A stretch of 42,272 nt of DNA from the NCBI RefSeq assembly GCF_014696875.1, contig NZ_JACJQV010000105.1, positions 1 to 42,272 of the forward strand. The letters are read 5' to 3'. The first letter of the stretch is position 1; the number at the start of each line of letters is the position of its first letter. The DNA comes from Microcystis wesenbergii FACHB-1317. Its GTDB lineage: Bacteria > Cyanobacteriota > Cyanobacteriia > Cyanobacteriales > Microcystaceae. The notes beneath the pieces were generated by a model that did not search any database, was not told the DNA's origin, and worked only from the letters and a program-made list of their open reading frames with translations. Of the stretch, positions 1,403 through 32,811 are shown piece by piece. A program made the translations under genes and the position numbers.

Positions 1403-2680
1403 TTATCCTTTTCTCAAACGTTCCACTAATTCAACCGCACAACCGATGCCACTTTCATGAAATCCGTAGGAATCAATGCCTCGTTTTTTGATGTGGAAAT
1501 ATGTCCCTGAGAAGTAAATAGGGCCAGTTTCATTGAGTTGATAAATTTGTTTTTGGGCTTCTAGAGTATTCATGTCATAAGCTGGATGTCGATACTTAAG
1601 AATGCGGATAATTTTGTCTTCATCAATGGCGATAGGTGGGGTATCTAAGGAAACAAAATAATCTTTCTTGGCGGTAAAATTATGGACTTTGTTAGCATAA
1701 TAAGTCACATAAGTATAAAGCTTTCCTTCTTTAGTTACTTGCCCATAATTCCAGGATTGCCATTTACTGCGATCGGGGTTCATAATAACTGGATCAGTGT
1801 GAACAGTTACGGCGGTTTCATTATACTTAAAACAGCCTAGGATGTTTTGTTCTAATTCAGTTGGTTCAGCAAGTATTCCTAATGCTTGATCAGCGTGAGT
1901 AGCCATAACCACCTTATCATAAACTTCTTCATCTGTGGTCGTTTTTATCGTTACTTTTCCGTCTTCTCTTTTTTTAACGGAAATCACTTCTTGTTCAGTG
2001 CGAATGGGTTTCTTTAAAGCATCTTTGACCCTTTCAACATAACGACTGCTTCCCCCTTTAACGGTTTGCCATTCGACCGTTTTTCCCCCCAACCCTCCTT
2101 GGTCATGAGTCATAAAAAAGCTGATAAAAGTTGAAGCGGGAAACTCCATTAATAAATCAGTAGGAATTGACCAAACGGCTGACCCCATTAGCATGACAAA
2201 GTTATCTCGAAAGGCTTGGCTATAGTTATTTTTATCTAGATATTCTTGCATAGAAATTCTCGTTTTTCCTTCCCAAAAATCAGCCCGTGCTTCTGAAAAA
2301 AAACGTTTAGCTTCTTGATAACAAGCGACTAATTCAGAGGATTGCTGACGAGCAAATTCTTCCATCGGCAGTTCTAAATCTAGGGAATTAAACTGCATTC
2401 CAGTATCCAAATTATAAAAATTAAATCCGCCTAAATGATCTTGAGTCTCTGCTCCTAAATCAGCAAAAAATTTCATCAAGTTGGGATAATTAGGTTTATT
2501 ACAAACCACAAAAGCCGTATCAAAAGAAATGCGTTGACCATCTTCATCCAAATCTAAGGTGTGAGCATGACCGCCGACACGACTACTTTTTTCATAGACA
2601 TCAACCTCATATTGATCTTGAAGATAATAGGCGATGGGAGAGCCAGAAATACCCGAACCAATGATTGCTAATTTTTCCAT
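1403..2680 (-). CDS. COG2907-like FAD/NAD-binding oxidoreductase (amine-oxidase fold)
   Basis: The 425-residue protein starts with a Rossmann dinucleotide motif IIGSGISGSPIAYYL (GxGxxG at residues 8-13), followed by the FAD-ribose glutamate region VYEKSSRVGGHAHT, as in flavin amine-oxidase/desaturase proteins. The stretch FDTAFVVCNKPNYPNLMKFF matches the COG2907 group, often found near fatty-acid modification genes. A C-terminal segment HESGIGCAVELVERL resembles the closing FAD-contact motif. AAGGA sits nine bases before the ATG. It is the last gene of the minus-strand cluster, so a late oxidation or desaturation of the acyl product is plausible; that is inference. Substrate and cofactor direction cannot be read from sequence. 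Confidence 0.75.
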   Translation of the reverse strand: MEKLAIIGSGISGSPIAYYLQDQYEVDVYEKSSRVGGHAHTLDLDEDGQRISFDTAFVVCNKPNYPNLMKFFADLGAETQDHLGGFNFYNLDTGMQFNSLDLELPMEEFARQQSSELVACYQEAKRFFSEARADFWEGKTRISMQEYLDKNNYSQAFRDNFVMLMGSAVWSIPTDLLMEFPASTFISFFMTHDQGGLGGKTVEWQTVKGGSSRYVERVKDALKKPIRTEQEVISVKKREDGKVTIKTTTDEEVYDKVVMATHADQALGILAEPTELEQNILGCFKYNETAVTVHTDPVIMNPDRSKWQSWNYGQVTKEGKLYTYVTYYANKVHNFTAKKDYFVSLDTPPIAIDEDKIIRILKYRHPAYDMNTLEAQKQIYQLNETGPIYFSGTYFHIKKRGIDSYGFHESGIGCAVELVERLRKG

Positions 2681-2744
2681 GATTTTGTCCTTGAATAAAT
2701 TGTGAAGTGGCTTAATTAGTGGGGGGAAAATTGAAGAAACTTTC

Positions 2745-3917
2745 CTAACTATTCTCCGAAGAATGTTGATAGTCAGGATGGGACTTTTGGGACTGACTTA
2801 AACTCAGCAAAAATAAGACAAAAATGACTAACATTAATGAGAAGATATACCGAGTTCCCATCATGGTCATGACAATAGCTGATAGAATGGGGCCGGCGGT
2901 ACAACCTGCACTATAAATTGAGGTAAAGACAGCACTCCCGGAGGATAATTCATTAAGGGTAACGGTAGAACCAATGAGGGCTAACGATAAGGGAAAAATG
3001 GGACTCATTCCTACCCCAGAGACAAAAGCTAAAAAGGGGGTAATCATGGGATTTTCGATTAAAGATAAGCCAAAAACTGAAACAATTACAATAATTACAC
3101 TACCGACTAAAACCTTAACTTTACCCATCTTATCGGCTAAATGAGTAATAGGAACGGTTGAAATTAATCCGCCTAAAATAAACAAGCCAAAGATTAAACC
3201 CATGCGCTCAATACCATAGTTTTGTTCGAGTAAAAAAAGTGGATAAAGAGAAACTAAGGTGGCAACACTGAAGCCATAAGCAAAAGCTCCTTGTAGGGGA
3301 AGTTTGAGCTTTTGAATAATGCTAAAGTTGGGCTTTTGAAACTTAACCGTTTTCTCTGGTAATCCAAAAAAGACAACAACAATTCCACTTAAAATCAAGC
3401 CACTTCCTAATAAAAAAGTGATCTTAGGAGAAAGATTATAGGCGACTGCTCCCATAATCGGACCGATACCAAAACCTAAGCTAAAAGCTAAAGCATCTAA
3501 ACCATTAACCATGGCTCGATTTTGATCATTACAAAAATAGTTAATAGCGGTTTGTCCAGAAATCAGATATAAACAACAGGCCAAACCCATAACGCCACGA
3601 ATGATAAACCAAAGAGATAATTGAGTAGTAAAGGCAAATAGAGGTGCAGTTATTCCCATTAAAAGGAATCCTAACATCATGGTTTTTCTTAATCCAATTT
3701 GGCGAAGAATACTAGCCACAATCGGTGTTCCTGCGGCAATGACAAAAAAGTAAAGAGTAGAATTTGCCCCAATAACAATATTGTCGTAACCCTTTTCTTT
3801 CATCAGGGTAGAAATAAAGGGGTTAAATAACCCTAGGGAAATTCCCGATAAAAAGGCCACTAAATAAAGGGCGGGAAGTCCAACAGAAAAGGGAGAATTG
3901 GCATTTTTAGTCATCAT
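2745..3917 (-). CDS. Major facilitator superfamily transporter
   Basis: About twelve hydrophobic segments make up this 390-residue protein, with the MFS loop 2-3 signature region around IVASILRQIGLRKTMMLGF and a matching second-half loop ITHLADKMGKVKVLVG. The frame can be opened at a TTG at 3935, but two adjacent ATGs at 3917 and 3914 give MMTKNANSPFSVG directly before the first membrane segment, so I take 3917. It lies between the enoyl reductase gene (3953) and the oxidoreductase (2680) in the same direction, which suggests export of the cluster product across the inner membrane. Export is inferred from position; the sequence does not show substrate. Confidence 0.85.
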   Translation of the reverse strand: MMTKNANSPFSVGLPALYLVAFLSGISLGLFNPFISTLMKEKGYDNIVIGANSTLYFFVIAAGTPIVASILRQIGLRKTMMLGFLLMGITAPLFAFTTQLSLWFIIRGVMGLACCLYLISGQTAINYFCNDQNRAMVNGLDALAFSLGFGIGPIMGAVAYNLSPKITFLLGSGLILSGIVVVFFGLPEKTVKFQKPNFSIIQKLKLPLQGAFAYGFSVATLVSLYPLFLLEQNYGIERMGLIFGLFILGGLISTVPITHLADKMGKVKVLVGSVIIVIVSVFGLSLIENPMITPFLAFVSGVGMSPIFPLSLALIGSTVTLNELSSGSAVFTSIYSAGCTAGPILSAIVMTMMGTRYIFSLMLVIFVLFLLSLSQSQKSHPDYQHSSENS

Positions 3918-3952
3918 GGGAAAATTCCAGCACAAGGTTCATAAGGGGGTTT

Positions 3953-5527
3953 TTAAAGAGGCGTGGGTCGATAAAAATGATAGGGAGACGGAAGATTAAC
4001 CCCCTGTAACTTCAGACTTTGCAGACGATAGAGATAAGCTGCACCGCGCATGATGTGAGTTGCTACATCCACCACTTGACGATTTTCGGAAAATTCTAAA
4101 TAAGTTCCTCGAACCCAATCGTTAAATGAACCCATCGCCGGACCACACCAAATTTGATAATCCATTGTTCGTTGTGGCTGTCCACTGGTTGCCCAACGAG
4201 AAGAAAGCCCTAAATACCAGCGAAAAATTAAAGCCATTTTCCGTTTAGGATTATTATTTGCTCGTTCAATTTGTTCGGGATCTCGCTCTTGAAAATAAGC
4301 AAGGGTTTCTTGCCAAACGGCCTCTAATGGTTTTTGGAAAATTTGCTTTTCTATGGTTTGACGAACCTCGGTCGGAATGGCATCAATTCCCTCATAAGTT
4401 TGATACAAATCATATAATTTTTGCGCGCGCATGGGGAATAAACTTCCCCGTTTTAAGAGTTGAACTTTCACCCCCATTTCAAACATATCAGCACAAGGGG
4501 CCATTACCACATCGGCCATTGCTGCTTGGGCTAATAATTGTTTGGTATGTTCAGATGTTCCCGCTTCAATACAAGCATGATTCACCGAACCTGTGATAAT
4601 GTAACTCGCTCCCATCATAAAGGCCGCTAAGGCTGATTCTGGAGTACTAATCCCACCAGCCGCCCCCACTCTAATAGAACGCTCATACTGATATTGCTGT
4701 TGAATCTCATTGCGTAAGGCAATAATAGAAGGGAGAAGGCAAACCAAAGAACGATTATCTGTGTGACCACCAGAGTCAGCTTCAACGGTTATATCATCGG
4801 CTAAAGGAACTTTTTCAGCTAAAGTTGCTTGTAAGGTTGTAATTTGTCCCTGTTCGACTAAAGCTTTCAGCAGTTTAGGGGGAGCAGGTTTTAAGAATTT
4901 CTGAGCAACTTCGGTCCGAGAAATTTTGGCAATGATCTTATTTTCGGTTTCAATATCGCCTTGAGAATTGAGATGTAATCCTGATGCTCGGTAACGGACA
5001 ATATGGGGGGTTAAATCCATATAAGCAGAGGCTTCAACAGTTCTTACCCCATATTTGAGGTAAAGTTCCACTGAACCCCGTTCTAGGGCCTCCTCTGAGG
5101 GGCTATGGATTAAATTAAAGGCATATCCTCCATTGGGTAAAGCTTCTTGAATGGTGTGAATGGCTTTTTCAACCCGTTGGGGAACTAACCCGGCTGCCCC
5201 AAAACTGGCTAAAAATCCCGCTTTTCCCAAAGAAATCACCAAATCTTCGGAAGCGATACCCCCAGCCATTGCCCCCGCCCCATAAGCATAGTCTAAACCA
5301 TGAAAGTCACAAAAAGCGCGATCGCCTAATTGTTGGGGTGATAGGGCATTAATCATGCTACGGGGCAGTATATCAGCATTAGGTTCGTGAGAAAGTCCTA
5401 TCTGGTTATTTTTGACATATACATAACAAGGCTGCTCTAAATTGGCTAATTTTTCTCGAATTCCTTCACTATCAAAGGAGATAGATGGTTTAGGGGAGCT
5501 AGTAAGAGGGTTATGGCTAGTTAACAT
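3953..5527 (-). CDS. PfaD-like FMN enoyl reductase (PUFA/heterocyst-glycolipid synthase type)
   Basis: A 524-residue TIM-barrel flavoprotein of the PfaD family, the trans-acting enoyl-ACP reductase of iterative PUFA-type synthases. Visible marks are GLDYAYGAGAMAGGIASEDLV (78-97), the phosphate/FMN loop GAAGGISTPESALAAFMMGA (288-307) and the EADSGGHTDNRS block (249-260). Stand-alone nitronate monooxygenases are shorter, near 330-380 residues, and lack the long C-terminal helical part seen here (DLYQTYEGIDAIP and on to the end). The neighbouring genes encode the other Pfa-like parts, which supports the assignment. It would reduce the C=C bonds made by the DH domains encoded just upstream (5669-10672). 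No clear RBS precedes the ATG. Confidence 0.9.
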   Translation of the reverse strand: MLTSHNPLTSSPKPSISFDSEGIREKLANLEQPCYVYVKNNQIGLSHEPNADILPRSMINALSPQQLGDRAFCDFHGLDYAYGAGAMAGGIASEDLVISLGKAGFLASFGAAGLVPQRVEKAIHTIQEALPNGGYAFNLIHSPSEEALERGSVELYLKYGVRTVEASAYMDLTPHIVRYRASGLHLNSQGDIETENKIIAKISRTEVAQKFLKPAPPKLLKALVEQGQITTLQATLAEKVPLADDITVEADSGGHTDNRSLVCLLPSIIALRNEIQQQYQYERSIRVGAAGGISTPESALAAFMMGASYIITGSVNHACIEAGTSEHTKQLLAQAAMADVVMAPCADMFEMGVKVQLLKRGSLFPMRAQKLYDLYQTYEGIDAIPTEVRQTIEKQIFQKPLEAVWQETLAYFQERDPEQIERANNNPKRKMALIFRWYLGLSSRWATSGQPQRTMDYQIWCGPAMGSFNDWVRGTYLEFSENRQVVDVATHIMRGAAYLYRLQSLKLQGVNLPSPYHFYRPTPL

Positions 5528-5658: not shown

Positions 5659-5679
5659 TGTTAACTGTTCACTGTTCAT
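5659..5679. repeat. Short heptanucleotide tandem repeat (TGTTNAC-type, 3 units)
   Basis: TGTTAAC, TGTTCAC and TGTTCAT follow one another at 5659-5679, overlapping the stop end of the 5669-10672 gene. Heptamer tandem repeats (STRR) are a known feature of cyanobacterial genomes. Related runs occur at 12492-12526 and 38394-38414. Confidence 0.5.
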
Positions 5680-8600
5680 TGTCTAATAGACACAGGGCGA
5701 TGTCTTTAATTTCGTAAATTCTTAAGTCTTCTTTCCAAAGACTGGCATCTCCGATAATTGTGATTACATCATCTTCGACTCGAATATCGGAAATATGCAC
5801 TTCTAAAGACATTAAACGATTTTCGGGTGTAATTTGTCCTCGATATTTCCAGGTGATTTGATGATTAATGGCTTGACCAAAGCGAGGATTTTTGAAAGAT
5901 TTGCCTAAGTCTAATTGCAGCGCATAAGTTTGCATAGCTTGAAGAATAGACTCAACGCCTAATGCACCAGGCATCACGGAATCTTGATAGAAATGGAAGG
6001 GAAAATACCAATCTTCGGGAGTAATTGATTGGCTGGCATAAATATATCCTTTTTGATACTTACCCCCATCTTGAATTAGGAAAACTTTTTCGATAAAATC
6101 AAGATAATTTTGAGAAAGACGATAATGGGGTTTTTCAGGATTTACTGAATAGAAGGTTTGGTGAGTTAAGGAATCTTGTAAATTAATTTCCTGTAGGGTT
6201 AAATCGGATAAATTATTCAGTTGATACCAAGGTTTAAGACGTTTTCCACCATCAAGTCCCACTTGATTCGCTAACACGGCTGTGCTAAAGTCTCCAAAGA
6301 CCATATTTCCCCGATAAAAAGGCTCACCTTCACAAGATAACTCAAACTCAAACTTTTGAATAATTGCCCCTTGAATAGCGGTGGTAGAAAGGAGACGAAC
6401 TTTATCCGTAATGGTTTTATTACGGAGGTCAATTTCTTTGAGAATTGTTCCCTGTCCATCCAAATTACGAAAATGAAGATCATCTTCTGGGAATAATAAA
6501 GTTGCTCCCATATAAACCCCTAAGAAAATACAAGGTTGACCGGCAATTTCAATATAAGTACAGTAGGGCAAAGTGGGATAGGCATTATGGTTATAAAACC
6601 AAGCATTTTCTTTGACATCAAATTCGGTAATAATTTCCGATGGTTTTTGCAATTCATGACGTTTACCTTCGATGTCTAATACCCGACTGACTAACTGAAA
6701 CTCCCCGTTAGGTAAACGAACCGATTGACGATTTTCATAAATGTCAAATTCTGATCCCAAACAGGCAGCCACTGATCCTTTAGCAAAGGTTTTTAATTGG
6801 TTTTCATTAAATAAAACCGATGACTGTTTTGATAATTGGGAAATATGGGGTAATGTTACTGACTCAATGGGTGGGAAAATACTGGGAATGGTGTCTGTTT
6901 TTTCTACCAGTTGAACACCAATATTTTTAATAGTAGCAATGGTTTTTCCGCCAAAAATAACATCCACATTAGCCAGAAGATAAGGTTGAGGAGAAAGTCC
7001 AATTTCTAACACCTCCATTTGATACATTAAAGTTCCATGTTGGGGAGTCACTTGTCCCCGAAAACGGGCTGCTTGGGTTTGATTAGGAATCACCTGAAAA
7101 CGAGCATCTTTCCTGTGAGTTTGTAACCCTAACCATAAACAATAAAATTGCACCAGTTGGATACTTCCTTCAATCATTAAATTCCCCGGTAAAGTGGGGT
7201 CATTTTTAAAATGACAAGAATAATACCAGTCCTCAGGAGTGATCTGTTTTGCTCCCACTGCTAACCCTAGTCCAGCTATTCCTCCTTGAGGATTTACCAT
7301 CATCACTTTCTCTAACATTAAGAGTTTTTCTGGGGGTAATCTGAGGGAAGAATTTAAGCCATTTTGTTGATAGTTTTTCCCTAAACAAGCCTCAATATTG
7401 CCTTGACTTAGATTAAGAAGTTCTTCTTTTTTAAAGAATGACTTAGAACAAGTTAAAAGAGGAGTAAACTGTTGTCTTTTAATCAAGTTTCTTTCTTTTT
7501 CTTCAGCCTCTTTTAGCACAATTCCCTGTCCTTTTTCTAATTCTTCATCAGAAAAGAGTCCAGCACAACCGTCATGAAGTTTCATCCAAACTTGATCCCC
7601 AATTAACACCTCTCCTTGGAAGAAAATTAATAAGCTATCATCAGTTTTAACCGAAGAGGTGATCTTAACTCGACACCGTAACAACTTAACATTTTCAGGT
7701 TGTTCAAATAAGAAGGTTGCAGATAAATCTAATAAACGGAAAGAGCGTTTTCCTTGATTTTCAAAATCTGTCCCGATATAACTTAATAGCATCAGGAGTC
7801 CGTGGCCGGCTTCTTTACAAATTCCTACCGTTAATTGACCATCTACTGCATACCAAGCATCTTCTGGTACATCATATTCTGTTTCGATGAAACCTGATTT
7901 ATAATCACCTAATTTTCCTTCTAATTGAGTCACCCGACTGACGAACAAAAAGGGAGGAGACGGCATTCTGACTCGTTGGGTATAATGATCAATGGGTTCA
8001 TATTCTTGACCAAAAACCTTAGAGACTTTACCTTCAATAAATTCGAGGATCTCAGGTTGATCAAATAAACAAGGTTTAACGGTTTTAGGATGAGAAGAAA
8101 TAACGCTTGTTCTTGAATGATCAACCGTAGAAATGGTTGGAACTTGGGAAAGAAGTTGAGTAGAAGAAGCGACTAAAACAGCGACTTTTTGAGAAGCAGT
8201 ATTTTCTCGAATAATTGAATTTTGTTGCTCAGTTTGGGGTTCAATATTAGCTTTGGGTGCTGTGGTTAACACTGTCTTAAAAATCGCCTCTAAGGTTTCT
8301 GCTTCATCTGTTAAATAAAGAGGGGATAAGTCTAGTTCTACCCCATGACTGACTAATTGTGCTAACATCTTAATAATGGTCGCTAAATCATCAGCACCTC
8401 GACGATTAATACACAATGCAAGATGCTCTTTTTGACCAAGAGTTTCCGATATCCAACGAGAACAACTTCCTCCTGATCCTAATTCTAGAAAAATTTTTAC
8501 CCCGTCTTGATAAGTGCGTTCAATTAAGCGAGGAAAATCTAACATTTGACACATTCCTTGACTTAAATGCTCACCAATTTTCTCTTGTTCTAAGGCCAGA

Positions 8601-17236: not shown

Positions 17237-17633
17237 TGTAGGTGTGTTCTCCAATCAATAATATAGCAGTCTGTAGAGACAACGAATAGTTCTTAAAGAA
17301 TGAACAAAGAATTGTTTGATTCCCTTTAGCTTCAGTTTAGGCAGAGTTCCCCGTTTATACAATGGATGATCTACTCTCACAAATGGATGATTTTTAGTAA
17401 GCGTTCGGGGGGAAAAAATCTGGTAACTAGAGTAGTCCATCACGCTCTTGGTGACGCCAATTCAAGTCTGAATTGCATCACTATCTGATCTACCTTTGGG
17501 GAATACCTCATTCGGGGTACGATAGTCAAGACATTTTCGAGGTAGCACTTTTGCCAAAGTATTCTCCTGACTTAATCAAACGGATTTAATAGGAGTCAAT
17601 GCCACGGACTGCTTGACACTCCCCCCTGAAAGG
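17237..17633. other. Gene-free interval with insertion-sequence debris
   Basis: This gap between two synthase genes contains an IS30-type transposase tail (17462-17575). Next to the end of the A-C gene lies a segment (about 17576-17633) of intergenic type, including a run of C that reads as GGGGGG on the minus strand. A direct repeat of ATGGATGAT occurs near 17360 and 17384. The frame of about 60 codons on the minus strand upstream of 17443 has no recognisable protein features. The GGAG for the PfaA-like gene lies at about 17250. Confidence 0.6.
17462..17575 (-). pseudogene. IS30-family transposase, C-terminal fragment
   Basis: Read on the minus strand, the frame ending at the TGA at 17462-17464 encodes LSQEN...LPRKCLDYRTPNEVFP...DAIQT. 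The block (N)xRPRKCLxYxTPxEVF, followed by a short tail, is the diagnostic C-terminus of IS30-family transposases. Nothing upstream continues the gene, so only about 38 codons remain. It lies within the cluster, between the A-C gene and the PfaA-like gene. Confidence 0.75.
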
Positions 17634-23700: not shown

Positions 23701-25617
23701 TAATTTATATAATGCGTATTCAATGGCGAATAGGGCGGGTTGAGTATAAGCAGTTTGGTCTAATAAGCTAGAATCACTGTATAAAACCTCTAATAAGGAC
23801 TTTTCTAGGTAAGGTTGCAATAAGCGATCGCATTCCTCTAAGGCATGACGAAAGGTGGGTTGAGTTTCATACAGTTGTCGTCCCATGTCTGCATACTGAG
23901 AACCTTGTCCTGTAAACAAGAAAGCAATCTTATTTTGACGACTTTTTGCAACTGCTTGGCTGAAAACATTCAAACAAGGTTGTTTTTGCGTAAATGCTGT
24001 GAAAGAGTCCTTGGCTTCAAGGGTTGATTTTGCCAAAATTGCCAGACGATGGTTAAATTGTCCTCGTCCCGTGTTGGCACTAAAAGCTAAGTCTGCTAGG
24101 TTTAATTGAGGATTTTTCTCTAAATAGTTGACCCATTTTTGCGCTAAATCATCTAAAGCATCGTCGCTTTTCGCCGATAGAGTGAGTAAATGAGCAGGAC
24201 GATCCACTTCAGAAGGATTAAAGCTTAATTGAGGCGGTTCTTCGATGATCATGTGGGCATTTGTGCCACTTAATCCAAATGCACTAATTCCCGCTCTTCT
24301 AGGTTCTTCTGTTCGCTGCCAAGGCAGAGAAGCGGTAGGAATTTTGAGAGCGGTTGCAGCAGCCGCTAAATCAGGATTAAGTTCTTTAAAATGAAGATGG
24401 GGGGGAATTTCTTGATTTTTTAGGGATAAAATGACTTTTAATAGGCTGGCCATCCCGGCGGCAATTTCCAGGTGGCCGATATTCGTTTTTACTGAACCCA
24501 CCATTAAGGGGTTATCAGTGGAACGATCTTTGCATAGTACATTGTTAATCCCCCGTACTTCAATAGGGTCGCCTAAGGCTGTTCCTGTCCCGTGTGCTTC
24601 TAAATAGCTAATTTGTTCGGGTTTTACTTTTGCATTCTCCAATGCTTGACGAATAACTGCCATTTGCGCTGATCCATTGGGAACCGTTAAACCACTACTG
24701 GGGCCATCTTGATTGACCGCCGAGCCTCTAATTACCCCTAAAATGTTATCTCCATCGCTTATAGCATCAGAAAAGCGTTTTAAGACCACCATTCCACAGC
24801 CTTCCCCTCTCACATAGCCATTTGCATCTTTATCAAAGGTTTTACAACGACCATCAGGGGACAAAGCGCGGGTTTTAGAAAGATATAACGTCACCTCCGG
24901 GGATAGCATTAAACTAACTCCCCCTGCTAAAGCTAAATTTGACTCTCTGTTGCGTAAGCTTTGACAAGCCAGATGTACCGTGACTAAAGAGGTAGAACAG
25001 GCGGTATCAATGGCTAAACTGGGTCCTTGTAGCCCTAAAAAATAGGATAAGCGACCTGAAGCGAAACAAAACGCATTTCCTGATCCCGTATAAGCATCAA
25101 TGGGAATTTGTTGCTTAATTTGCCGTTTTGCGTAATCATCCAAGCCAATGCCCACAAATACGCCTGTTTGCGTCCCTGTCAGCTTCTGAGGTGCAATTCC
25201 GGCATTTTCTAACGCTTCCCAACTTACCTCTAATAATAATCGTTGTTGAGGGTCTAGTGCGATCGCCTCCCGGGGAGTCATCCCGAAAAATTGCGGATCA
25301 AATTGATCTACTGCGTCAATAAACCCGCCATAACGAGCATAAGTTTTGTTAGGAAGATCGGGATTTTCGTCATAATAAGCCTCAGCATCCCATCTTTGGC
25401 TAGGAACAGGGACAATTACTTCTTTTCCCCTTGATAATAGCTCCCAAAACGCCTCTGGACTATTTGCACCCCCCGGAAAACGACAGCCCATGCCAATAAT
25501 AGCGATCGGTTCATTTTTTTGCCGTTCTAAGGCTTCAATCTTGTTACGAGCTTCTTTAAGCGCAATAACTGCTTTTTGTAACGGCGTTAATTCTGTTTTC
25601 TGATGATGAGAATCCAT
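20794..25617 (-). CDS. Hybrid PKS/NRPS protein: KS-AT-ACP-C-ACP
   Basis: Start chosen at the ATG at 25617 (AAGGAG upstream; N-terminus MDSHHQKTELTPLQKAV, usual for cyanobacterial PKS). A longer frame to 25689 would run into a mobile element. In the 1607-residue protein: KS about 36-465 (DTACSTS, Cys207; His342; His382); AT about 563-880 (FTGQGSQ, GHSVGE Ser654, HAFH, so malonyl-CoA likely); ACP1 LEADLGLDSIMM (Ser989); a condensation-like domain about 1055-1510 whose motif reads EHLISDG, keeping the catalytic His1198 and DG but with Glu for the first His; and ACP2 LEADLGLDSLERI (Ser1560). No KR, DH or ER is present, so the PKS module should leave a beta-keto group. With the A domain of the next protein, C-ACP2 forms a split C-A-T module (inference). 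The linkers contain repeat-derived sequence. Confidence 0.9.
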   Translation of the reverse strand: MDSHHQKTELTPLQKAVIALKEARNKIEALERQKNEPIAIIGMGCRFPGGANSPEAFWELLSRGKEVIVPVPSQRWDAEAYYDENPDLPNKTYARYGGFIDAVDQFDPQFFGMTPREAIALDPQQRLLLEVSWEALENAGIAPQKLTGTQTGVFVGIGLDDYAKRQIKQQIPIDAYTGSGNAFCFASGRLSYFLGLQGPSLAIDTACSTSLVTVHLACQSLRNRESNLALAGGVSLMLSPEVTLYLSKTRALSPDGRCKTFDKDANGYVRGEGCGMVVLKRFSDAISDGDNILGVIRGSAVNQDGPSSGLTVPNGSAQMAVIRQALENAKVKPEQISYLEAHGTGTALGDPIEVRGINNVLCKDRSTDNPLMVGSVKTNIGHLEIAAGMASLLKVILSLKNQEIPPHLHFKELNPDLAAAATALKIPTASLPWQRTEEPRRAGISAFGLSGTNAHMIIEEPPQLSFNPSEVDRPAHLLTLSAKSDDALDDLAQKWVNYLEKNPQLNLADLAFSANTGRGQFNHRLAILAKSTLEAKDSFTAFTQKQPCLNVFSQAVAKSRQNKIAFLFTGQGSQYADMGRQLYETQPTFRHALEECDRLLQPYLEKSLLEVLYSDSSLLDQTAYTQPALFAIEYALYKLWQSWGIKPDGVLGHSVGEYVSACVAGVYSLEEGIKLIAERGRLMQSLPQKGAMAAIFAPIETVKSVISPYGDQVEIATINSSENIVISGDQEAINQIKADLESQSIEVRLLKVSHAFHSRMMQPILAEFKVIAAKISYKTPQLDWISTVTGEEISQAVTEDYWCQQVRQCVQFAPAIETLASQGYNLFIEIGSHPILTRLGQKTLANPDYLWLSSLQRGQDDWQILLQSVAKLAVSGINIDWNGFDKDYARLRLPLPTYAFQKQRYWLTVGEPGLRPTQETETLEKQDLHQSQERETLGVPDLRPTQKQNETKAESLESQLIALISQITGLNPQQLSLNVSLEADLGLDSIMMTQLMNGLLSLIPEEQRSQFSETFSLRHLMQVSNLQELLTILQSHTSSPKSQISNPKPQTKNLQLQSSNLVPILHSQIPLLMSYWSLNSNSLFTKVKIAGEFDLNIAQQAWKLLINRHPMLRAQFQIPEDATCFADYQLEVLENPIPPEIIVKDFTPLTPDEQGEKIEGEIYHWLNYNWSLTQWPLHRFSVLKLSDQIHQLFLGNEHLISDGLSNHVMMREFLEIYRAIVAKETPNLPPTLTVEDYRKQVQLMNDWQDIEEDRALAEYNNAVSGMSYRWQPKQQKNAQKSPLFYNQKYLLSAETTSQLIDKTRQWRVPMNALLLGAFLKTMSQIDSKAENIGISIPTSGRIYPEVDATGVVSSFAQNLALSFAKPQSEQDWPTFLSQIQQTVQQHIGTGLDRAQTRQMGTIFRDNITLEKGKIPPHSLSLIQEALKSNLYLPYTGQTHLQPQYDALSITDYQAGGMNATGTIDILQEIFNNRLHLFASYDYHHFDLLLIDQLMTAYVSQIEELANLPVQDQVIISHSFSISLNTEIEEMLRQITSEICHWTIEEDEISDDLEADLGLDSLERIRLVTKLEGIYGKQYRQDLLNCRTLQEMAAILAPSQPSILNSYR

Positions 25618-25676
25618 GATATTAAAATGCTCCTTAGATATTAGGTGTGAGGTGTTAGTTATTCGGATAACTGATA

Positions 25677-25794
25677 AGTAGGTAGGCACAATTATTTGTA
25701 GGATGGGTTAGCGGTAGCGTAACATAATCGGGCGTTGGGTTTCATGCTTCAACCCAACCTACGTTCATTTTATATTTAATTCCACCCACCTACT
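25677..25794 (-). mobile_element. 118-bp TA-flanked MITE, full copy
   Basis: The element is bounded by TA at 25675-25676 and 25795-25796. The ends are inverted: AGTAGGTAGGCACAATTA at the left and, reverse-complemented, AGTAGGTGGGTGGAATTA at the right. Inside are a GTAGGTTGGGTT...AACCCAAC hairpin and a TAGCGG(T)AGCGTAAC block. It is about 90% identical (by eye) to the copy at 35541-35658, in opposite orientation, and has no coding capacity. A TA target points to Tc1/mariner-IS630-type mobilisation. It lies between two PKS genes, just upstream of the RBS at about 25630. Confidence 0.8.
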
Positions 25795-25814: not shown

Positions 25815-28800
25815 TTAAAGTAATGCCTCTAATTCCGCCAATTCTCGCTCCACTAGGGCTTCTGTTTCTACTTCTGACAGCAACTCCAATTCAGCAAGGG
25901 CTTGGTGGAGTACTACAACATCCGTTGACTCGGTTTCCGAAGAAATCTGAGAATTTTCTGAATTATCTTGCCAAGCAAATACTTCTTGGACAAAATACTG
26001 CACCACATCACCAATAGTGGGATACTCAAAAGCAAAGGTAGAAGGTAAAGAGACAGAAAATAAGCCTTCTAGACGATGTTTCAGTTCTACGGACATTAAA
26101 GAATCCATTCCCATCTCAAAGAACCCTTTATCAGTATCTGGTAAAGTATCTCCGTGAATTCCTAAGACTTGCGCTACTTCTTGCTGTAAACGAGTGGTTA
26201 ATAGGGTGACTCGTCGGTGAGGAGGGTTTTTTTGGATGGTTTGGGGGAAATTCTCGACCGTTTGCCCAAAATTATGCTGATCTTGCTTGAATAACGCTTC
26301 TAAGAAAGCCAGCCGTCCTTTTGCTGCAACAATCGTTTTAAACTTAGACCAATCAATCTCTGCTACCATTGTTTGAGTAACATTACCATGGATTAGAGCA
26401 TCTAAAGTATCCAAGGCTAAATTAGGTTGTAATGGATTGATTCCCAGGCGTTTTAAGCCTTCTTCATAGCCTTGCGTGGCCATTCCCCCTTTAGCCCAAG
26501 GTCCCCAGTTAATGCTTAACCCTGTGAGTCCAGACTCTCGACGGTAGTGCATTAAACCATCTAAGAAATGGTTGGCCGCGGCATAGTGAATTTGACCTCG
26601 TGATCCGATTAAAGCAGATATGGAAGAGAAACAAACAAAGAAATCTAAGGATAAATCTTGAGAAAGTTGGTGTAAATTCCAGGCTCCTGCTGCTTTAGGA
26701 TTAAATACGCTCTCAAAACAATGGAAATCCATCTTGTCAATGGTGCGATCGCTTAAAACCCCTGCCGCATGAATAATACCCTGTAAGGGAGGACAATTTT
26801 CTTGAATTTGGTGAAAAAGTTGACGGGTTTGTTGATAATCACTGACATCAGCGGCAATTACTTGAATAGTAGCCCCTTTATCCTCTAAAGCTTTGATTTT
26901 TACCTGTTTATCCGTTGAATGGTCAGCTAAGGCTCGCCGACTGGTTAAGATTAAATGATTTGCACCTTTTTCAATTAACCAATCTGCTAAACTTAATCCT
27001 AAAGAGCCTAAGCCACCAGTAATGAGATAACTGGCTTCTGTCTTTTTAAAATTGATGTTTGAGCTTTTTATTGCTTTATTAGGTACTAAACGGGCAACAT
27101 ATCGTTGATGATCCCGAAAAGCGATGCGATCTTCTCCTAGATTTTCTGTTATTTCAGCAATAATTGCTTGAGACGATGGTTGTTTTTCTTCTAAATCAAT
27201 CAATCCTCCCCATAAATTAGGATATTCAAGGGCAATGACTTGACCCATTCCCCATAAGGACGTTTGTGCTATTTTAAGCGGTTTAACAGCATCATTCACC
27301 GGTTGTGCTTGTTGTGTTATGACCCAAAGTTTAGGGGGTTCTTTAGTTTTACATTGAGCTAAAGCTTGTGTTAGATACAATAAACTGGCATAAGAACGAG
27401 TTTGACAGGGTTGGGAGTTAATATCGCTGTCTAACCCCCATAAATAGACCACTTTGGTGATCGGTTCAGTTAGATCTTGTAACAACCGTTGAAAATCCTT
27501 AACATTATTAGGATTAATTTGATAATGACCTGACACCAACTTCTGATAAGTTTGACCAGAAGACACCAAAACATAAGCATCATTTAGGGTTGTTGCTAAG
27601 GCTTTACCGACTACTTGATTATCATTAAAAATTAACCACCGTTCTCCTTGAGAAGGCTTATTTTTTAAGTTTAAAGGACTGAGTTGCCATTCCACTTGAT
27701 AACAGTTTTTACTCACATCCTGTAGGATAGGCATTTTGCCTGTTATTGTTGCATCTTCCCCAACAAATAACTGTAATAATTGTGGTAAAAACTGCTTGAC
27801 TTCAGGTGATAATTGATCACTTTGATTTAACTGTTCAGTTAGTTGTTCAGTTTTGCCTTCAACTAATAAATTAAGTAAACTAGAAGCAGACGAAACAGAC
27901 TTAAATTGAGGTTTAGCATCACTTACCCAATAAGATTCATGTTGCCAAGGATAAAGCGGTAACTTAACAAACTGACAATTTTCGGGATATAATTTTTCCC
28001 AATTAATCGAATGTCCCCAAGTGTAGAGCTTTCCTAAAGAATTTAATAGCGTTCCCCGTTCAGAATGTTCTCGTCTTAGAGAGGGTAAAACAAATCCCTC
28101 AGTATCTTGTTCTCGCAAGGTACTTTTAATATATCCCAATAAAACAGGATGGGGGCTGATTTCAACAAAGATAGTATGACGAGATTTAATCATTGCTTCA
28201 ATCGCAGGGTTAAAACGTACCGTCTGACGCATATTTTGTCCCCAATAAGCGGCATTAAATAATGTCCCCTCTTGTTGATCACCTGTTACGGTTGAGAAAA
28301 TTGATATGGTGCTTTTTTGAGGCTGAAGCTCTCCTAATTTTTTCACTAAATTATCCGCAAAAGTAGTCATTTGTTGACTATGAAAAGCATAATTAACAGG
28401 TAGTTCTTTGGAGAAAATATCGGGACGGTTTTGGGACAATTCAGCAATTAATTGATCGATCGATTGAGACTCCCCAGATACAACCGTTGAATAGGGACTA
28501 TTAATGGCAGCAATTTCTAATTTATTTTCCCAAGCAGCTATTAAATTTTCTACCTCATTAACAGGTAATTCAATCGCAAGCATTTTTCCATTTCCTGTTG
28601 CTTGCTGCATCAACTGTCCGCGCTGACAAATCAAATGAATGGCTTCCTCAAGAGTGAGAATTCCCGCAAAATGGGCGGCTGCAACTTCTCCCAAGCTGTG
28701 ACCAACCACAGATTTAGGATTAATCCCCCAAGATTGCCATAATTTAGCTAATCCAACTTGTAAAGCAAATAAAGCAGGTTGAGAAACTTCTGTTTCTTGT

Positions 28801-30548
28801 AAACGAGATTGAGCTTCAGACGCATTAAATTCCGCTAATAATGACCAGTTAGCATACTTTTGAATCAAAGTATCACATTGTTTAATAACAGAGCGAAAAA
28901 CCGGTTCTGTTGCTAATAATTCCCGTCCCATTGCCCACCATTGAGGTCCTTGGCCAGAAAAGACAAAAGCAATGTTTGTTTTACGTTTTGAAGGCTTAGA
29001 TTGAGTCGATAAATCAATCGTTTCTAACTCTTTTAAACCCTTCAATAATTCTTCATGAGAATGAACCACAACCGCCTGACGATGAGCATGATGAGTCCGT
29101 CTTGCACTAGCACTATAGCAAAGATTCTGGACAAATTCAGCGGTTAAAGCTTGATCTTTCAGGAAATCTTCATAATTTTGAGCTAAATCTCTAACCGCTT
29201 CGTGACTATGGGCAGATAAAGGGAGTAAATGAGGGAAAGTTAAGGAAATTGGTTCTGGGTGAGATAAATTAGCTTCTTCTAAGATAAGATGAGCGTTTGT
29301 TCCCGAAAATCCAAAAGAACTAATTCCCCCCTTGGCGGTTGTTTCCTGTTGTGGCCAGGTAATTAAAGATGATTGAAGCTTAAGGGGTAACTTATCAAAG
29401 GGAATATAAGGATTCGGCTTGTTAAAATGCAGACTGGGCGGAATTTGCTTGTTTTTCAGGGAAAGTGCCATCTTAATCACACTGGCAATTCCTGCCGCTG
29501 CTTCGAGATGTCCTATATTACTTTTTACCGATCCCACCAAACAAGGATTATCCTTGTCTCGTCCTTCTTCTAACACAGCTCCCAAGGCCATCGCTTCGAT
29601 GGGATCGCCTAAAGATGTTCCCGTCCCGTGTAATTCCACATAATTAAGCTCTTTTGGCTCAATTTCGGCATTTTTCAAGGCTGATCGAATCAAGCTTTCT
29701 TGTGCCGGTCCATAGGGAACCGTTAACCCCTTGCTGCGTCCATCATGATTAATAGCAGTTCCTCTAATTAACGCATAAATGGAATCCTTATCTGCGATCG
29801 CTTGAGCCAACGGTTTGAGAATAATACAACCGACTCCCTCACTTCGCACATATCCATTGGCGCTTTCATCAAAGGTTTTGCAACGTCCATCAGGAGACAA
29901 GGCTTTCAATTTGCTTAACGCAATATGACCAATAGGAGATAAAATCAGGTTAACCCCTGCTGCGATCGCCATTGAAGACTCATCATTCCATAAACTTTGA
30001 CAAGCGAGATGCACTGCAACCAAAGAGGAAGAACAAGCCGTATCTACCGCTAAACTAGGACCTTTTAAGTTAAAAAGATAGGAAAGACGACCGGCTGCGA
30101 TATTTGTGCAGTTTCCTGTTAAATCATAGCCTTGAGGTTGGTGGCTATATCCTGCATGAATGCGACTATAATCGTTTGTGGCAATTCCCACAAATACACC
30201 TGTTTTCGATCCTGCTAATTGTTCCCGTGTTATTCCTGCATCTTCAATGGTTTCCCAAGCTACTTCTAAGAGTAAGCGTTGCTGAGGGTCCATTAATAAG
30301 GCTTCTCTAGGAGAAATCCCGAAAAAATTAGGATCAAACCCATCAACTTGCGATAAAAATCCCCCATGACGAGAATTCATTTTCCCCTGTGTTTCGGGAT
30401 TCTCATCATAATATTCATCAATATTCCAGCGCTCCTTAGGAATTTCGGTGATGCCGTCAATTCCCTTTGATAATAATTGCCAGAATTCCTGAGGATTATT
30501 GGCTTGAGGAAAACGACAGCCAATCCCAATAATTGCAATAGGTTTCAT
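25815..30548 (-). CDS. Type I modular polyketide synthase: KS-AT-KR-ACP
   Basis: The 1577-residue protein contains a KS (1-425; DTACSSS Cys172, ELHGTGT His307, NIGH His347), an AT (about 525-840; FSGQGPQ, GHSLGE Ser618, YAFH) and a KR. The KR structural half is at about 950-1155 and its catalytic half at about 1170-1400, with YLITGGLGSLG, Ser1308/1309, Tyr1322, Asn1326 and LSD in the stereochemistry loop, which suggests a B-type KR. One ACP follows (MGMDSLMSVEL, Ser1483), then a charged helical C-terminal tail (LAELELLSEVETEALVERELAELEALL) that looks like a docking segment. AAGGA lies about 12 bases before the ATG. It would extend the primed chain by one malonate unit to a beta-hydroxy intermediate and hand over to the KS-AT-ACP-C-ACP protein encoded next. 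Confidence 0.92.
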   Translation of the reverse strand: MKPIAIIGIGCRFPQANNPQEFWQLLSKGIDGITEIPKERWNIDEYYDENPETQGKMNSRHGGFLSQVDGFDPNFFGISPREALLMDPQQRLLLEVAWETIEDAGITREQLAGSKTGVFVGIATNDYSRIHAGYSHQPQGYDLTGNCTNIAAGRLSYLFNLKGPSLAVDTACSSSLVAVHLACQSLWNDESSMAIAAGVNLILSPIGHIALSKLKALSPDGRCKTFDESANGYVRSEGVGCIILKPLAQAIADKDSIYALIRGTAINHDGRSKGLTVPYGPAQESLIRSALKNAEIEPKELNYVELHGTGTSLGDPIEAMALGAVLEEGRDKDNPCLVGSVKSNIGHLEAAAGIASVIKMALSLKNKQIPPSLHFNKPNPYIPFDKLPLKLQSSLITWPQQETTAKGGISSFGFSGTNAHLILEEANLSHPEPISLTFPHLLPLSAHSHEAVRDLAQNYEDFLKDQALTAEFVQNLCYSASARRTHHAHRQAVVVHSHEELLKGLKELETIDLSTQSKPSKRKTNIAFVFSGQGPQWWAMGRELLATEPVFRSVIKQCDTLIQKYANWSLLAEFNASEAQSRLQETEVSQPALFALQVGLAKLWQSWGINPKSVVGHSLGEVAAAHFAGILTLEEAIHLICQRGQLMQQATGNGKMLAIELPVNEVENLIAAWENKLEIAAINSPYSTVVSGESQSIDQLIAELSQNRPDIFSKELPVNYAFHSQQMTTFADNLVKKLGELQPQKSTISIFSTVTGDQQEGTLFNAAYWGQNMRQTVRFNPAIEAMIKSRHTIFVEISPHPVLLGYIKSTLREQDTEGFVLPSLRREHSERGTLLNSLGKLYTWGHSINWEKLYPENCQFVKLPLYPWQHESYWVSDAKPQFKSVSSASSLLNLLVEGKTEQLTEQLNQSDQLSPEVKQFLPQLLQLFVGEDATITGKMPILQDVSKNCYQVEWQLSPLNLKNKPSQGERWLIFNDNQVVGKALATTLNDAYVLVSSGQTYQKLVSGHYQINPNNVKDFQRLLQDLTEPITKVVYLWGLDSDINSQPCQTRSYASLLYLTQALAQCKTKEPPKLWVITQQAQPVNDAVKPLKIAQTSLWGMGQVIALEYPNLWGGLIDLEEKQPSSQAIIAEITENLGEDRIAFRDHQRYVARLVPNKAIKSSNINFKKTEASYLITGGLGSLGLSLADWLIEKGANHLILTSRRALADHSTDKQVKIKALEDKGATIQVIAADVSDYQQTRQLFHQIQENCPPLQGIIHAAGVLSDRTIDKMDFHCFESVFNPKAAGAWNLHQLSQDLSLDFFVCFSSISALIGSRGQIHYAAANHFLDGLMHYRRESGLTGLSINWGPWAKGGMATQGYEEGLKRLGINPLQPNLALDTLDALIHGNVTQTMVAEIDWSKFKTIVAAKGRLAFLEALFKQDQHNFGQTVENFPQTIQKNPPHRRVTLLTTRLQQEVAQVLGIHGDTLPDTDKGFFEMGMDSLMSVELKHRLEGLFSVSLPSTFAFEYPTIGDVVQYFVQEVFAWQDNSENSQISSETESTDVVVLHQALAELELLSEVETEALVERELAELEALL

Positions 30549-30685
30549 GGTTGAGATATCCTTAATTAATAGACAGCAATTTACTTAACTAGAGAAATAA
30601 AATTAATTCCCTCAAATGGATAGGATAGCTCGATGTTACCCCCTGGCGATGATTTAATGAGAACCCACCCTTTCCTCTATTTTGA

Positions 30686-32485
30686 TTAAACATTGACAGG
30701 AACTTTCTTAGGTGAGTTTGTGGCAGTTTCTGTTAGCCAAGTATTTAGTTGAGGGCGATAACGATAGTTGGTAAATTCTTGGCGAGTTTGTTCAATTTGA
30801 CTATTATCAGGAAGCTTACAAGTCAAATACTTATAAACCATTTCCGTAATGGCAGATTGAAGGGCACCATTAAGATGTCCAAACAGATAGGACAGATTTT
30901 TGCGATTGAGAAAAGCTGAAAAACCAAATCCTTTCCAGAGGAACTTTGCATACCAAACTGCTGTATAAAAACTGGTCGCTTTAATTCCAGCGAAAACATT
31001 GCACCGTCTTGGTTCAAATTTAGTGTTTTCGATAAAGTCATCGAAGTGTTTGAGGGTATGATAACCCCAGATTAATTGATCAGTGCGATGAGCATCCATA
31101 AAACCAATGTTTTTATTCTGCTCAACTAATTGATTAAACTGTTCATAGAGATGATGCCAATATCCTTTAATATCCGCTTGAACTTTTGGCACATAACGGG
31201 AAATAAAGCCGGTATCTAAATGCCATTTGCCGACATAAAGGGGAATTTGAATCCCAAACCACCACATATATTCGGCATAAATACGCCAACTCATGATACT
31301 AGCATGACCTAATTGTTTATCATGGTGTTCAATGAGATGATTATTGAGTCGAGTATAGGTAAGGTTAAAGTCATTGTAAGCAGCCCGTTTTTCTTCTGTA
31401 TCCGCTTCTCCTGCAAGTTGAGAACGAATAATTTCCGTGATACTTTCAATCGCAAAAGCAATCATACTTGTTCCCAAAGAGTAAAAGGGATCAAAAATAC
31501 AAGCAGCATCTCCAACTACATACCAATTATCTTGAGAAAACATCGTTTTGCTAGTATGGGAAACTCTAGGAAGATAATGAAAATCGACATTTTCTCCAGA
31601 GGTAACTAAGCGATAAAGTAGATTGTGATTGGCTTTTAGGAAAGCATAAAACTTCTCTTGAGTGTTAATTTGACCGTTGGCAATAACACTGCGATGTTGA
31701 GCAATTCCAATAGAGATTTCTTGGGAGTCTTTTTCTGTGGGAATCATCCATAACCAATGACCATGACCAAACCAATGATTGGTAGCATAATAATGGCTAC
31801 AAGTTGCTCCATAAGGGTCATAACCATCATGAAAAATGGTGCGATCTATATTTTTAACCCGTACCCAAGCCGATCCCGTATCAACTCCAAATAAATTATC
31901 TGCACCTACAATAACGTTATCAGTTTTATGGCCAATAATAAACTTACGTCCTGCTGCATCAACAAGGTGTTTTGCTCTCAGTTCGTGATAATTTCCGTCA
32001 ATCATTTTAACTTTGACGGTGTGCATCTCATCAGTAGGAGTAATGTCCACATCAACCACACGGCCTTGATAGAAACTTGCTCCCATTTTCTTATTCATTT
32101 TGAGCAAATCCCGTTCAAATTTTGCCCGGTTCATTTGAAACGTGCCAAGGGGAAATTGTCGATTCGCCCAAATATGATAATAATCATCAATGGTGTCAGT
32201 TTTATCTGCATCTTTTGCCCAATGAAAATTAAGAGCATATTTAGGGGGATGATTTTCGATCATATACTCATATAACCCCAATTCTTTGCAAACAAATAGG
32301 GTGGCAATTTCCACCATTGATTCGCCAATTTTGAGGTCTTTATCGGTTCTTTCTTCGGGACGAGGATCAATGAGGGCAATTTTGATATTGGGAACATTTA
32401 AGAGTAAATGTCTTGCTTGACAGACTCCCGCAAAACCTGCTCCCATAATCACAACATCATACTCATTAGTGTTAGTAGCAACCAT
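30686..32485 (-). CDS. Flavin-dependent halogenase-like enzyme
   Basis: The 599-residue protein has an FAD motif MGAGFAGVCQARHL (14-27), KIGESMVEIATLF (52-64), a lysine in PPKYALNFHW (Lys82) at the position of the catalytic lysine of tryptophan halogenases, and HWLWMIP (243-249), which matches the halogenase GWxWxIP motif except that His replaces the first Gly. GDAACIFDPFYSLG (325-338) matches the second conserved block. The PLEST glutamate of free-tryptophan halogenases is Tyr335 here; a non-Glu residue at this place is usual in enzymes acting on carrier-bound substrates. It lies directly downstream of the discrete ACP gene. AGGAG is ten bases before the ATG. A flavin monooxygenase without halogenating activity is the main alternative. 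No flavin reductase partner lies in the window. Confidence 0.75.
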   Translation of the reverse strand: MVATNTNEYDVVIMGAGFAGVCQARHLLLNVPNIKIALIDPRPEERTDKDLKIGESMVEIATLFVCKELGLYEYMIENHPPKYALNFHWAKDADKTDTIDDYYHIWANRQFPLGTFQMNRAKFERDLLKMNKKMGASFYQGRVVDVDITPTDEMHTVKVKMIDGNYHELRAKHLVDAAGRKFIIGHKTDNVIVGADNLFGVDTGSAWVRVKNIDRTIFHDGYDPYGATCSHYYATNHWFGHGHWLWMIPTEKDSQEISIGIAQHRSVIANGQINTQEKFYAFLKANHNLLYRLVTSGENVDFHYLPRVSHTSKTMFSQDNWYVVGDAACIFDPFYSLGTSMIAFAIESITEIIRSQLAGEADTEEKRAAYNDFNLTYTRLNNHLIEHHDKQLGHASIMSWRIYAEYMWWFGIQIPLYVGKWHLDTGFISRYVPKVQADIKGYWHHLYEQFNQLVEQNKNIGFMDAHRTDQLIWGYHTLKHFDDFIENTKFEPRRCNVFAGIKATSFYTAVWYAKFLWKGFGFSAFLNRKNLSYLFGHLNGALQSAITEMVYKYLTCKLPDNSQIEQTRQEFTNYRYRPQLNTWLTETATNSPKKVPVNV

Positions 32486-32547
32486 TGGTGAAATTCTCCT
32501 AAAATGTGATGAGGAATAGAGTGAATGAGAAAGAATACAAGAAAAAG

Positions 32548-32811
32548 TTAAAGATATAATTCCCCTAATCGGGTTGCTAATTCAGCAATGGTGGGATAGT
32601 TAAAAATGACCACAGGATTTAATTCCTTTCCGAGCCATTTTTCTAAGCGTCCTAATAAAACTAACGCTTTTCGTGAGTCGAGTTCATAATTATCAAAAGG
32701 TTCTTCAATATCAATGTCATCAAGGTCAACATCGAGTTGTTGAGCCAACTGATCAACGAGCCAGTTTTGAATGTCTTCAACGGTACAAGGGGATTGAACA
32801 GTTGTCATCAT
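32548..32811 (-). CDS. Discrete acyl carrier protein, first gene of the cluster
   Basis: This 87-residue protein is a complete carrier fold with the phosphopantetheine site NYELDSRKAL (Ser46; the usual Gly before LDS is Glu) and the closing helix region LEKWLGKELNPVVIFNYPTIAELATRL. The LExWLGxxLxPxxxxxYPTIxxLA pattern resembles ACPs that accept acyl chains from fatty-acyl-AMP ligases, but no such ligase is in the window. AAAGGA (32821-32826) is about nine bases before the ATG pair. It is the most upstream gene of the minus-strand cluster and probably presents the starter to the halogenase and the first KS; that role is inferred from position. Confidence 0.88.
   Translation of the reverse strand: MMTTVQSPCTVEDIQNWLVDQLAQQLDVDLDDIDIEEPFDNYELDSRKALVLLGRLEKWLGKELNPVVIFNYPTIAELATRLGELYL

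Follow-up and report, generated by a model that had tools for sequence, protein, structure and literature searches.

We analyzed a 42,272-nucleotide stretch of the Microcystis wesenbergii FACHB-1317 genome (hereafter the window: contig C8, positions 1-42272, of a 5.04-Mb genome in 248 contigs). It carries a biosynthetic gene cluster joining an iterative polyunsaturated fatty acid (PUFA)/hgl-type synthase to modular polyketide synthase (PKS) and nonribosomal peptide synthetase (NRPS) parts and a flavin-dependent halogenase-like protein, HAL. The cluster is real, intact, and of an already published kind, the cyanobacterial clade II triple hybrids (PMC13291983). With moderate confidence, we read it as a pathway in which a long acyl chain would be chlorinated on a discrete acyl carrier protein (ACP0), undergo two extensions, be coupled to serine, and finally be exported. 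In addition, the HAL gene appears to have moved as a cassette from one cyanobacterium to another, related one.

The twelve open reading frames at 1403-32811 all lie on the minus strand, and all are intact. Pfam and NCBIfam matches confirm the parts listed in a preliminary description of this DNA (Pfa-like proteins, PKS, A-C protein, ACP, halogenase-like protein, MFS exporter, and FAD oxidase), and the domain matches bear out its reading of a PUFA/hgl-type synthase combined with modular PKS/NRPS. A pattern check found the KS Cys/His motifs in all three working KS domains, the serines of their AT domains and of the carriers, cofactor and Tyr motifs in both KRs, and the DH motif in the KR-DH protein.

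PfaA is divided among three consecutive genes that match TIGR02813 at positions 4-1078, 1756-1977, and 1991-2582. The first encodes a PfaA/HglE-like KS-AT-ACP protein with a single ACP (P0006, 13415..17254; 1417 bits, with a PP-binding match), the second a 239-residue protein (P0007, 12639..13358; 4.5e-33), and the third the C-terminal part with the catalytic KR and the DH (P0008, 10718..12475; 2e-147; motifs GGGRGI, YSLAN, and HVIGGNAVLP). The 239-residue protein has no Pfam match. Because it fills the PfaA interval between the parts carried by its neighbors and elsewhere shares a frame with KS-AT, we read this "Rossmann protein" splitting PfaA as a detached piece of the PfaA ketoreductase, its structural half, in line with the structural KR proposed earlier. 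It matched seven places in five same-order genomes; at six of these the match falls within the same large frame (1761-2391 residues) as a PfaA-like KS-AT, judged by frame length and position, and at two of the six it runs across one stop. Identity to the PfaA/HglE-like frames of the five genomes is 54-63% for the KS-AT-ACP protein and 48-56% for the 239-residue protein.

The next gene encodes a 1667-residue PfaB/C fusion (5669..10672) with an AT recognized by TIGR02816 (2.7e-42), two FabA stretches (6e-93), and only one KS-like region. Pfam finds no KS in this protein, and residues 1-327 align to a KS profile in hhalign (probability 100, E 1.2e-57), a single-template comparison with a profile made from the three KS domains of the window itself. 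In the alignment the Cys and both His positions are substituted, and HGTGT is absent. This supports a PfaB KS that is degenerate rather than absent, as the pseudoKS of the preliminary description implied. The N-terminal half of the protein is 40-48% identical to frames mostly of about 900-1130 residues and to some of 1525-1609 residues; the latter could represent further clade II fusions. Across an even phylum-wide draw of 386 genomes, PfaB/C matched 47 at 1e-80; among the matches listed, those outside the window's own genome are partial (residues 3-907 or 822-1662), and Microcystis sp. LSC13-02 and Microcystis aeruginosa S464 are not among them. The PfaA/HglE-like and PfaB/C-matching frames are presumably hgl genes. 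The window's synthase differs from hgl-type synthases in its linkage to PKS/NRPS and halogenase genes and in its split-off KR; Microcystis is not known to form heterocysts. A PfaD-like enoyl reductase (3953..5527; TIGR02814, 680 bits, 1.1e-204) completes this half. No aminotransferase or thioester reductase appears among the matches listed for the pfa genes (for the KR-DH protein, the best 25 of 33 NCBIfam matches).

The modular half begins with ACP0 (32548..32811; PP-binding 1.3e-16, with an LDS phosphopantetheine site), which is 99% identical in two Microcystis relatives and 62-80% in four other loci. Beside it lies HAL (599 residues, 30686..32485), followed by PKS1 (25815..30548), a KS-AT-KR-ACP module, and PKS2 (20794..25689), a PKS/NRPS protein with the order KS-AT-ACP-C-ACP, both assigned by Pfam and motifs. 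By eye, PKS1 lacks an N-terminal docking stretch and has a docking-like C-terminal tail, and PKS2 starts with a docking-like stretch; the end of PKS1 and the start of PKS2 look like cyanobacterial docking ends. The last protein of this half (17634..20576) is an A-C protein without its own carrier, recognized by Pfam, alignment to EntF, and motifs. At 35% identity, its A domain aligns with that of Escherichia coli EntF, and at the ten positions that we take to determine specificity it has D-I-W-H-I-S-L-I-D-K against D-V-W-H-F-S-L-V-D-K, seven of ten being equal and the three differences being I for V, I for F, and I for V. On this ten-position match, the A domain reads as serine-specific.

A side observation concerns Microcystis sp. 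LSC13-02, in which the locus at L020:10417-18293 has a KS-AT-DH-KR-ACP module followed by an aminotransferase and an SDR in place of PKS2. ACP0 and PKS1 of this locus are 99% and 95% identical to those of the window, which indicates a module swap inside one cluster. Separately, a Pfa/hgl-like operon in another genome (L149, about 8.4-22.7 kb, G312) carries a discrete ACP0-like carrier (47%) beside its PfaD gene, with no modular PKS match within the fetched 40 kb. This arrangement hints that ACP0 may be of Pfa-side origin.

From this gene content, the iterative synthase (three-piece PfaA, pseudoKS-AT-DH-DH, and PfaD) would produce a long acyl chain, and this chain or its starter would be held on ACP0 while HAL chlorinates an activated carbon. 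PKS1 would then add two carbons and reduce to a hydroxyl, and PKS2 would add two more and leave a ketone. The embedded C domain would join the chain to serine loaded in trans by the A domain on the terminal carrier. Since PKS1 has a KR, PKS2 has none, and a C-carrier pair follows, a beta-keto-acyl serine is the expected outcome of the assembly line. The extra C domain might serve in product release or in joining a second chain, and MFS/RND transporters would export the product. The chlorination, the order of steps, and the product are all deduced from the gene set; the serine-type A domain and the halogenase motifs agree with the chlorinated lipo-aminoacyl metabolite that had been predicted earlier.

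Two features of the window tell against this scheme. The C motif of PKS2, EHLISDG, keeps the second His and has E at the first, and neither a ligase to load ACP0 with an acyl group nor a terminal TE or reductase was found among the window's annotated genes. Because of the latter, the start of the pathway and its release are guesses; release could be by tetramic acid ring closure, by addition of a second chain through the spare C domain, or by plain hydrolysis. A zeamine-like arrangement of two parallel chains, in which the A-C protein's extra C domain links the PUFA-type chain by an amide or ester to a separate, possibly chlorinated, polyketide-serine piece, is conceivable and in our view rather unlikely. 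The C domain of the A-C protein has an HHxxxD motif (HHIIADM) and no partner carrier on the same protein, as this arrangement would have it, and section 9 of PMC13291983 portrays such pathways as two parallel assembly lines. However, no amine-giving aminotransferase or thioester reductase is found among the matches listed for the pfa genes, and ACP0 is located at the PKS end beside the halogenase. We retain the single line from the iterative synthase through ACP0 to serine as the preferred scheme. For chitinimine, section 9 of the same survey gives acyl transfer from the PUFA-type synthase to the first KS as a proposal.

The scheme depends on HAL being a halogenase. HAL matches Trp_halogenase in Pfam (47.8 bits, cut-off 21), and its nearest sequence in the Protein Data Bank (PDB) is PltA (9.3e-18). 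Both GxGxxG (GAGFAG, residue 15) and WxWxIP (WLWMIP, residue 244), which we take to be the motifs of flavin-dependent halogenases, are present in HAL, and K82 aligns with a PltA Lys that presumably acts in the active site. An improbable alternative is that HAL is a non-halogenase flavoprotein, either an oxygenase or a LodB/GoxB-like maturase: its catalysis is predicted, its best NCBIfam match is the maturase LodB (78 bits, against 61 for CmlS), and both scores lie well under their cut-offs, a result that counts against the halogenase assignment. Against the alternative, G15/G17/G20, K82, W244, W246, and P249 are invariant in 30 aligned sequences including the window's (the 29 others being 41-89% identical to HAL); the nine PDB matches consist of ChlB4 and eight sequences named halogenase or alkylhalidase. 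Moreover, homologues of HAL, often two or three together, adjoin PksE-like iterative PKS genes, a context published as "three halogenases" (PMC2442094). We accordingly keep the halogenase assignment as the probable one.

HAL homologues were collected from 70 loci of public genomes, of which 48 were annotated (L051-L098) and 22 left out at 30% identity or below. A clade II context was found in six of the 48 (L051-L056, L052 being on a 4.4-kb contig), and the short contig L097 holds a PKS1-like KS. At 28 of the 48 loci, weak matches (23-42%) to iterative PKS lie near HAL, which is often present in two or three copies; Pfam was used to check this context in one cluster (G005), which has KS-AT and ACP-KR-DH-thioesterase-like proteins. 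The stretch covered at 13 loci shows neither context. The window's genome has one HAL match at 1e-30. Two further candidates were dropped: a duplicate of HAL at clade II loci (seven loci, none with two copies), and the three tandem halogenases as part of a clade II cluster, as those adjoin PksE-like PKS. No relative was found among viral contigs, and two plasmid records matched, a distant Janthinobacterium one (28%) and the megaplasmid of Gloeothece PCC 7822 (61%). The latter (Gloeothece verrucosa PCC 7822, NC_014533.1, 879545 bp; contig C5 of G019) carries an iterative-PKS cluster with three halogenases and is a possible route of spread. Homologues at 41-53% identity also occur in Myxococcota/Deltaproteobacteria and other proteobacterial metagenome-assembled genomes (MAGs; L088, L091, L094, L095, and L096), and these form one group with support 99 in a midpoint-rooted tree.

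The distinctive behavior of HAL emerged from comparison with the clade II relatives: M. aeruginosa S464 (G006/L053), Microcystis sp. LSC13-02 (G004/L054), a Crocosphaera MAG (G424/L051), and the loci G031/L055 and G032/L056, with G424 and G032 both placed in genus g14. Between the window and S464, 17 other genes encode proteins 93-99% identical, and HAL is 76% identical; at the DNA level, identity is mostly 94-100% in the flanks and 66-85% over most of HAL. The best match of the window's HAL is instead the Crocosphaera MAG (89%), for which ACP0 and the PKS1 KS are 78% and 81% identical. Two HAL trees were built, one of 74 rows (77 collected after exclusion of segments under 300 residues, with three frames under 400 residues dropped) and one with bootstraps on 14 of these rows. 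Each tree keeps window+L051 apart from L053+L054+L056, with full support for both groups; in the 14-row tree the former stands at 100/100. The PKS1 KS-AT tree, built without L052, whose contig lacks the AT, groups window+L053+L054 (99/100) and L051+L056 (100/100). For HAL, approximately unbiased (AU) tests reject both groupings that the neighboring genes would lead one to expect: a single clade of the Microcystis sequences (p 0.0001, delta lnL 183) and one of L051+L056. A derivation of HAL from PksE-type halogenases is tempting and no more than a candidate: the large tree is rooted at its midpoint, its inner supports are 82-94, and the 14-row tree shows clade II simply as one side against the others.

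An informative-site scan placed the change of affinity within the gene. Sites are Crocosphaera-like at 240 of 331 positions in the HAL core (30830-32259), at 6/29 and 9/27 in its 5' and 3' ends, and at 0/12 in the gap before PKS1, 29/1352 in PKS1, and 3/527 upstream. The best exchange segment (30695..32387, minus strand) scores 208 against at most 34.3 in 2000 shuffles, which ignore linkage between sites; the contrast with the flanks is nonetheless plain. Most of the window's HAL thus appears to be an allele of the neighboring genus, not that of its Microcystis relatives, and behaves as an exchangeable unit. Within g14, HAL of G424 and G032 is 71% identical and the other compared domains outside PKS2 are 75-95% (ACP0 95, PfaA KS 94, PKS1 KS 92, PKS1 AT 82, PKS1 KR 76, and AraC 75); the second PKS module diverges further (KS 57%, AT 42%), so HAL is less isolated in this pair. 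A bAT match at 24% in G424 was set aside as chance, the gene lying beyond the G424 stretch.

An ancestral tandem pair of halogenases (types A and B) reciprocally lost in the two genera would also produce the conflict between trees, and we give it somewhat less than even credence. PMC13291983 gives "one or two" as the number of halogenase genes in its two M. aeruginosa strains, both types occur in the window's genus and in g14, and type B is about as divergent between genera (80% identity) as its neighbors are (80-82%). On the other hand, none of the seven clade II halogenase loci has two copies, the ends of the window's HAL are mostly Microcystis-like (23 of 29 sites 5' and 18 of 27 sites 3'), and type A is closer between genera (89%) than the adjoining ACP0 and KS (78-81%). 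Exchange between genera is the account of HAL that we lean towards, and it could change the site or number of chlorinations on the product. More tentatively still, the halogenase position may be a slot that switches chemotype, with alleles swapped across genera by homologous recombination in a pathway otherwise near-identical within a genus, so that strains would chlorinate one lipid differently; we count the second PKS module of LSC13-02, with its aminotransferase and SDR, under the same proposal.

The Pfa and PKS halves share one contig in five of the seven clade II halogenase loci (the window, S464, L051, L055, and L056); the remaining two are L052, a 4.4-kb contig, and LSC13-02, whose draft genome has the Pfa half on another contig. 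S464 has the gene order of the window. In LSC13-02, the RND-HlyD-PEP-CTERM-like genes directly adjoin the FAD oxidase on one side and have the A-C protein's C domain on the other. Because the same core is kept in at least three arrangements, these data argue for a single function of both halves, as one unit. The preliminary description had called them one transcription unit: the same-strand neighborhood agrees with this, but a 379-bp gap (17255-17633) separates the halves in the window, and in L051, L055, and L056 the Pfa and ACP0-HAL-PKS halves are transcribed divergently, which weighs against a single unit. No promoter-like site was found on the minus strand at 17100-17800, by a consensus that may not fit cyanobacterial promoters; one on the plus strand equals the chance expectation. 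That the two halves are neighbors by chance and make two products is very improbable. The divergent loci speak for it, two of which have an AraC gene separating the halves, yet the halves occur together in three genera (g1, g9, and g14), in at least three gene orders, and always with ACP0 and HAL. We do not prefer this explanation, as the linkage outlasts rearrangement.

The cluster limit of 1403-32811 given earlier proved too narrow. RND, HlyD, and PEP-CTERM-like genes are linked to the cluster in three relatives (LSC13-02, S464, and G032), and the RND and HlyD linkage moves the boundary to 41916, the end of the RND pump. On the plus strand, this extension holds a PEP-CTERM-like exported protein (35819..36793; E 0.011, below the curated cut-off, with STPEPS and a hydrophobic tail), an HlyD/RND periplasmic adaptor (36849..38405; TIGR01730, 1.6e-52), and an RND efflux permease (38818..41916; NF033617, 5.6e-124, under the curated cut-off). 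Speaking against a fixed exporter, RND is absent from the fetched 40 kb of G031, where HlyD-like, FtsX, and ABC genes stand instead; the covered stretch of G424 has no RND/HlyD exporter. The distribution of the cluster was assessed with the 239-residue protein: of 12 genomes of the genus, 4 gave a match at 1e-10, those of the window, LSC13-02, and S464 at 97-100%. The same-species genome G059 matches it weakly (32% over part) and lacks matches to the halogenase (at 1e-100) and to PfaB/C (at 1e-80), so the cluster is apparently patchy, even within the species.

Other genes of the window include an AraC-type regulator with a PAS domain near ACP0 (33722..34684, minus strand; PF12833), with matches close to ACP0 in four of the six other clade II loci (L051, L053, L054, and L056). 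At the opposite end lie the MFS exporter (2745..3935; MFS_1, 4.1e-46) and an FAD oxidoreductase of amino-oxidase fold (1403..2680; PF01593, 6.3e-21). The latter is 98% identical in both S464 and LSC13-02 and 87% in G032, with no match in the fetched 40 kb of G031 or G424. No tRNA was found in the window, and Rfam gave no match at gathering scores. Proteins at 453-1202 and 35819-36793 flank the cluster, and both end in TPEPS, a hydrophobic stretch, and a basic tail; the second alone has a sub-threshold Pfam match, homologues of both adjoin the cluster in G031, and S464 carries an additional 52% copy of the first. In the G031/L055 cluster, PKS1 bears a methyltransferase, and other genes encode a P450, a protein resembling polyketide cyclases, and HlyD/FtsX/ABC exporters. 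L055 is titled Candidatus Gracilibacteria SU_1_2, and its cyanobacterial content and placement in the window's family make this public title look wrong.

The 2026 survey lists 63 triple-hybrid clusters, among which clade II comprises cyanobacterial PKS-NRPS-PUFA-synthase-like clusters with an uncharacterized product; its members include M. aeruginosa NIES-843 and Chao 1910, and halogenase genes occur in two of its M. aeruginosa strains (PMC13291983). The window shares with clade II, as described there, a pfaA split by a Rossmann gene, a pfaBC fusion that carries an AT and one or two DH and lacks a CLF, a pair of PKS modules with a single NRPS module, and a tryptophan-halogenase-like gene where a third PKS module would stand; of the one or two halogenase genes reported, the window has one. 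This overturns the earlier statement that the gene order matches no named cluster, and a novel, unnamed architecture was rejected on the same description. By its position, the survey's Rossmann gene, given there as of unknown function, should be the counterpart of the 239-residue protein, which in the window reads as a KR half of PfaA. For M. aeruginosa, a subset of clade II, the survey has the PfaB KS absent, whereas the window has a degenerate one, a difference of reading. Compared by description, sections 7 and 9 of the survey do not mention halogenase exchange or RND linkage for clade II, and titles and abstract openings in the literature yielded no product for such a cluster.

Zeamine, fabclavine, and chitinimine pathways likewise combine a PUFA-type synthase with PKS/NRPS parts. 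Chitinimine differs in its four NRPS modules, aminotransferase domain, and TEs, and zeamine and fabclavine in having aminotransferase domains together with KR and TR enzymes. The sections covered describe none of the three with a halogenase (PMC13291983). The pfa-part aminotransferase and thioester reductase that mark the zeamine-type clade I are absent among the matches listed for the window's pfa genes. Orphan cluster MIC1 of M. aeruginosa (NIES-843 reference, 37.2-39.6 kb; PMC3741299) likewise has adjoining NRPS and PKS genes with RND transporters. As the sole NIES-843 orphan cluster in Table 2 of that paper, MIC1 is probably the clade II cluster, at the level of detail given there. Table 6 of PMC2442094 differs on NIES-843, with no iterative/glycolipid type and one enediyne type; the same paper describes in PCC 7806 an iterative PksE-like PKS with three halogenases. 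Halogenases in apparently that context are about 50-67% identical to HAL, and the PksE-like cluster differs in its type of iterative PKS and is not in the window's genome. PMC9839332 places hglE-KS-type clusters in genospecies K, O, and P only. A Microcystis review (PMC12838216) cites halogenase-evolution work for the halogenase genes of peptide clusters, and the terms hgl, iterative, glycolipid, and fatty acid are absent from it.

The analysis adds a corrected anatomy, a predicted use of serine, a wider boundary, and an apparent exchange of the halogenase. Together these results concern an orphan pathway of a bloom-forming genus that has been catalogued without a product, and they provide testable handles on it: the serine reading, the pairing of ACP0 with the halogenase, and strain pairs that differ chiefly in the halogenase. 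Such pairs amount to natural allele replacements, through which the type of halogenase could be related to the pattern of chlorination. If the halogenase position does switch chemotype, closely related strains would make variously chlorinated forms of one lipid.

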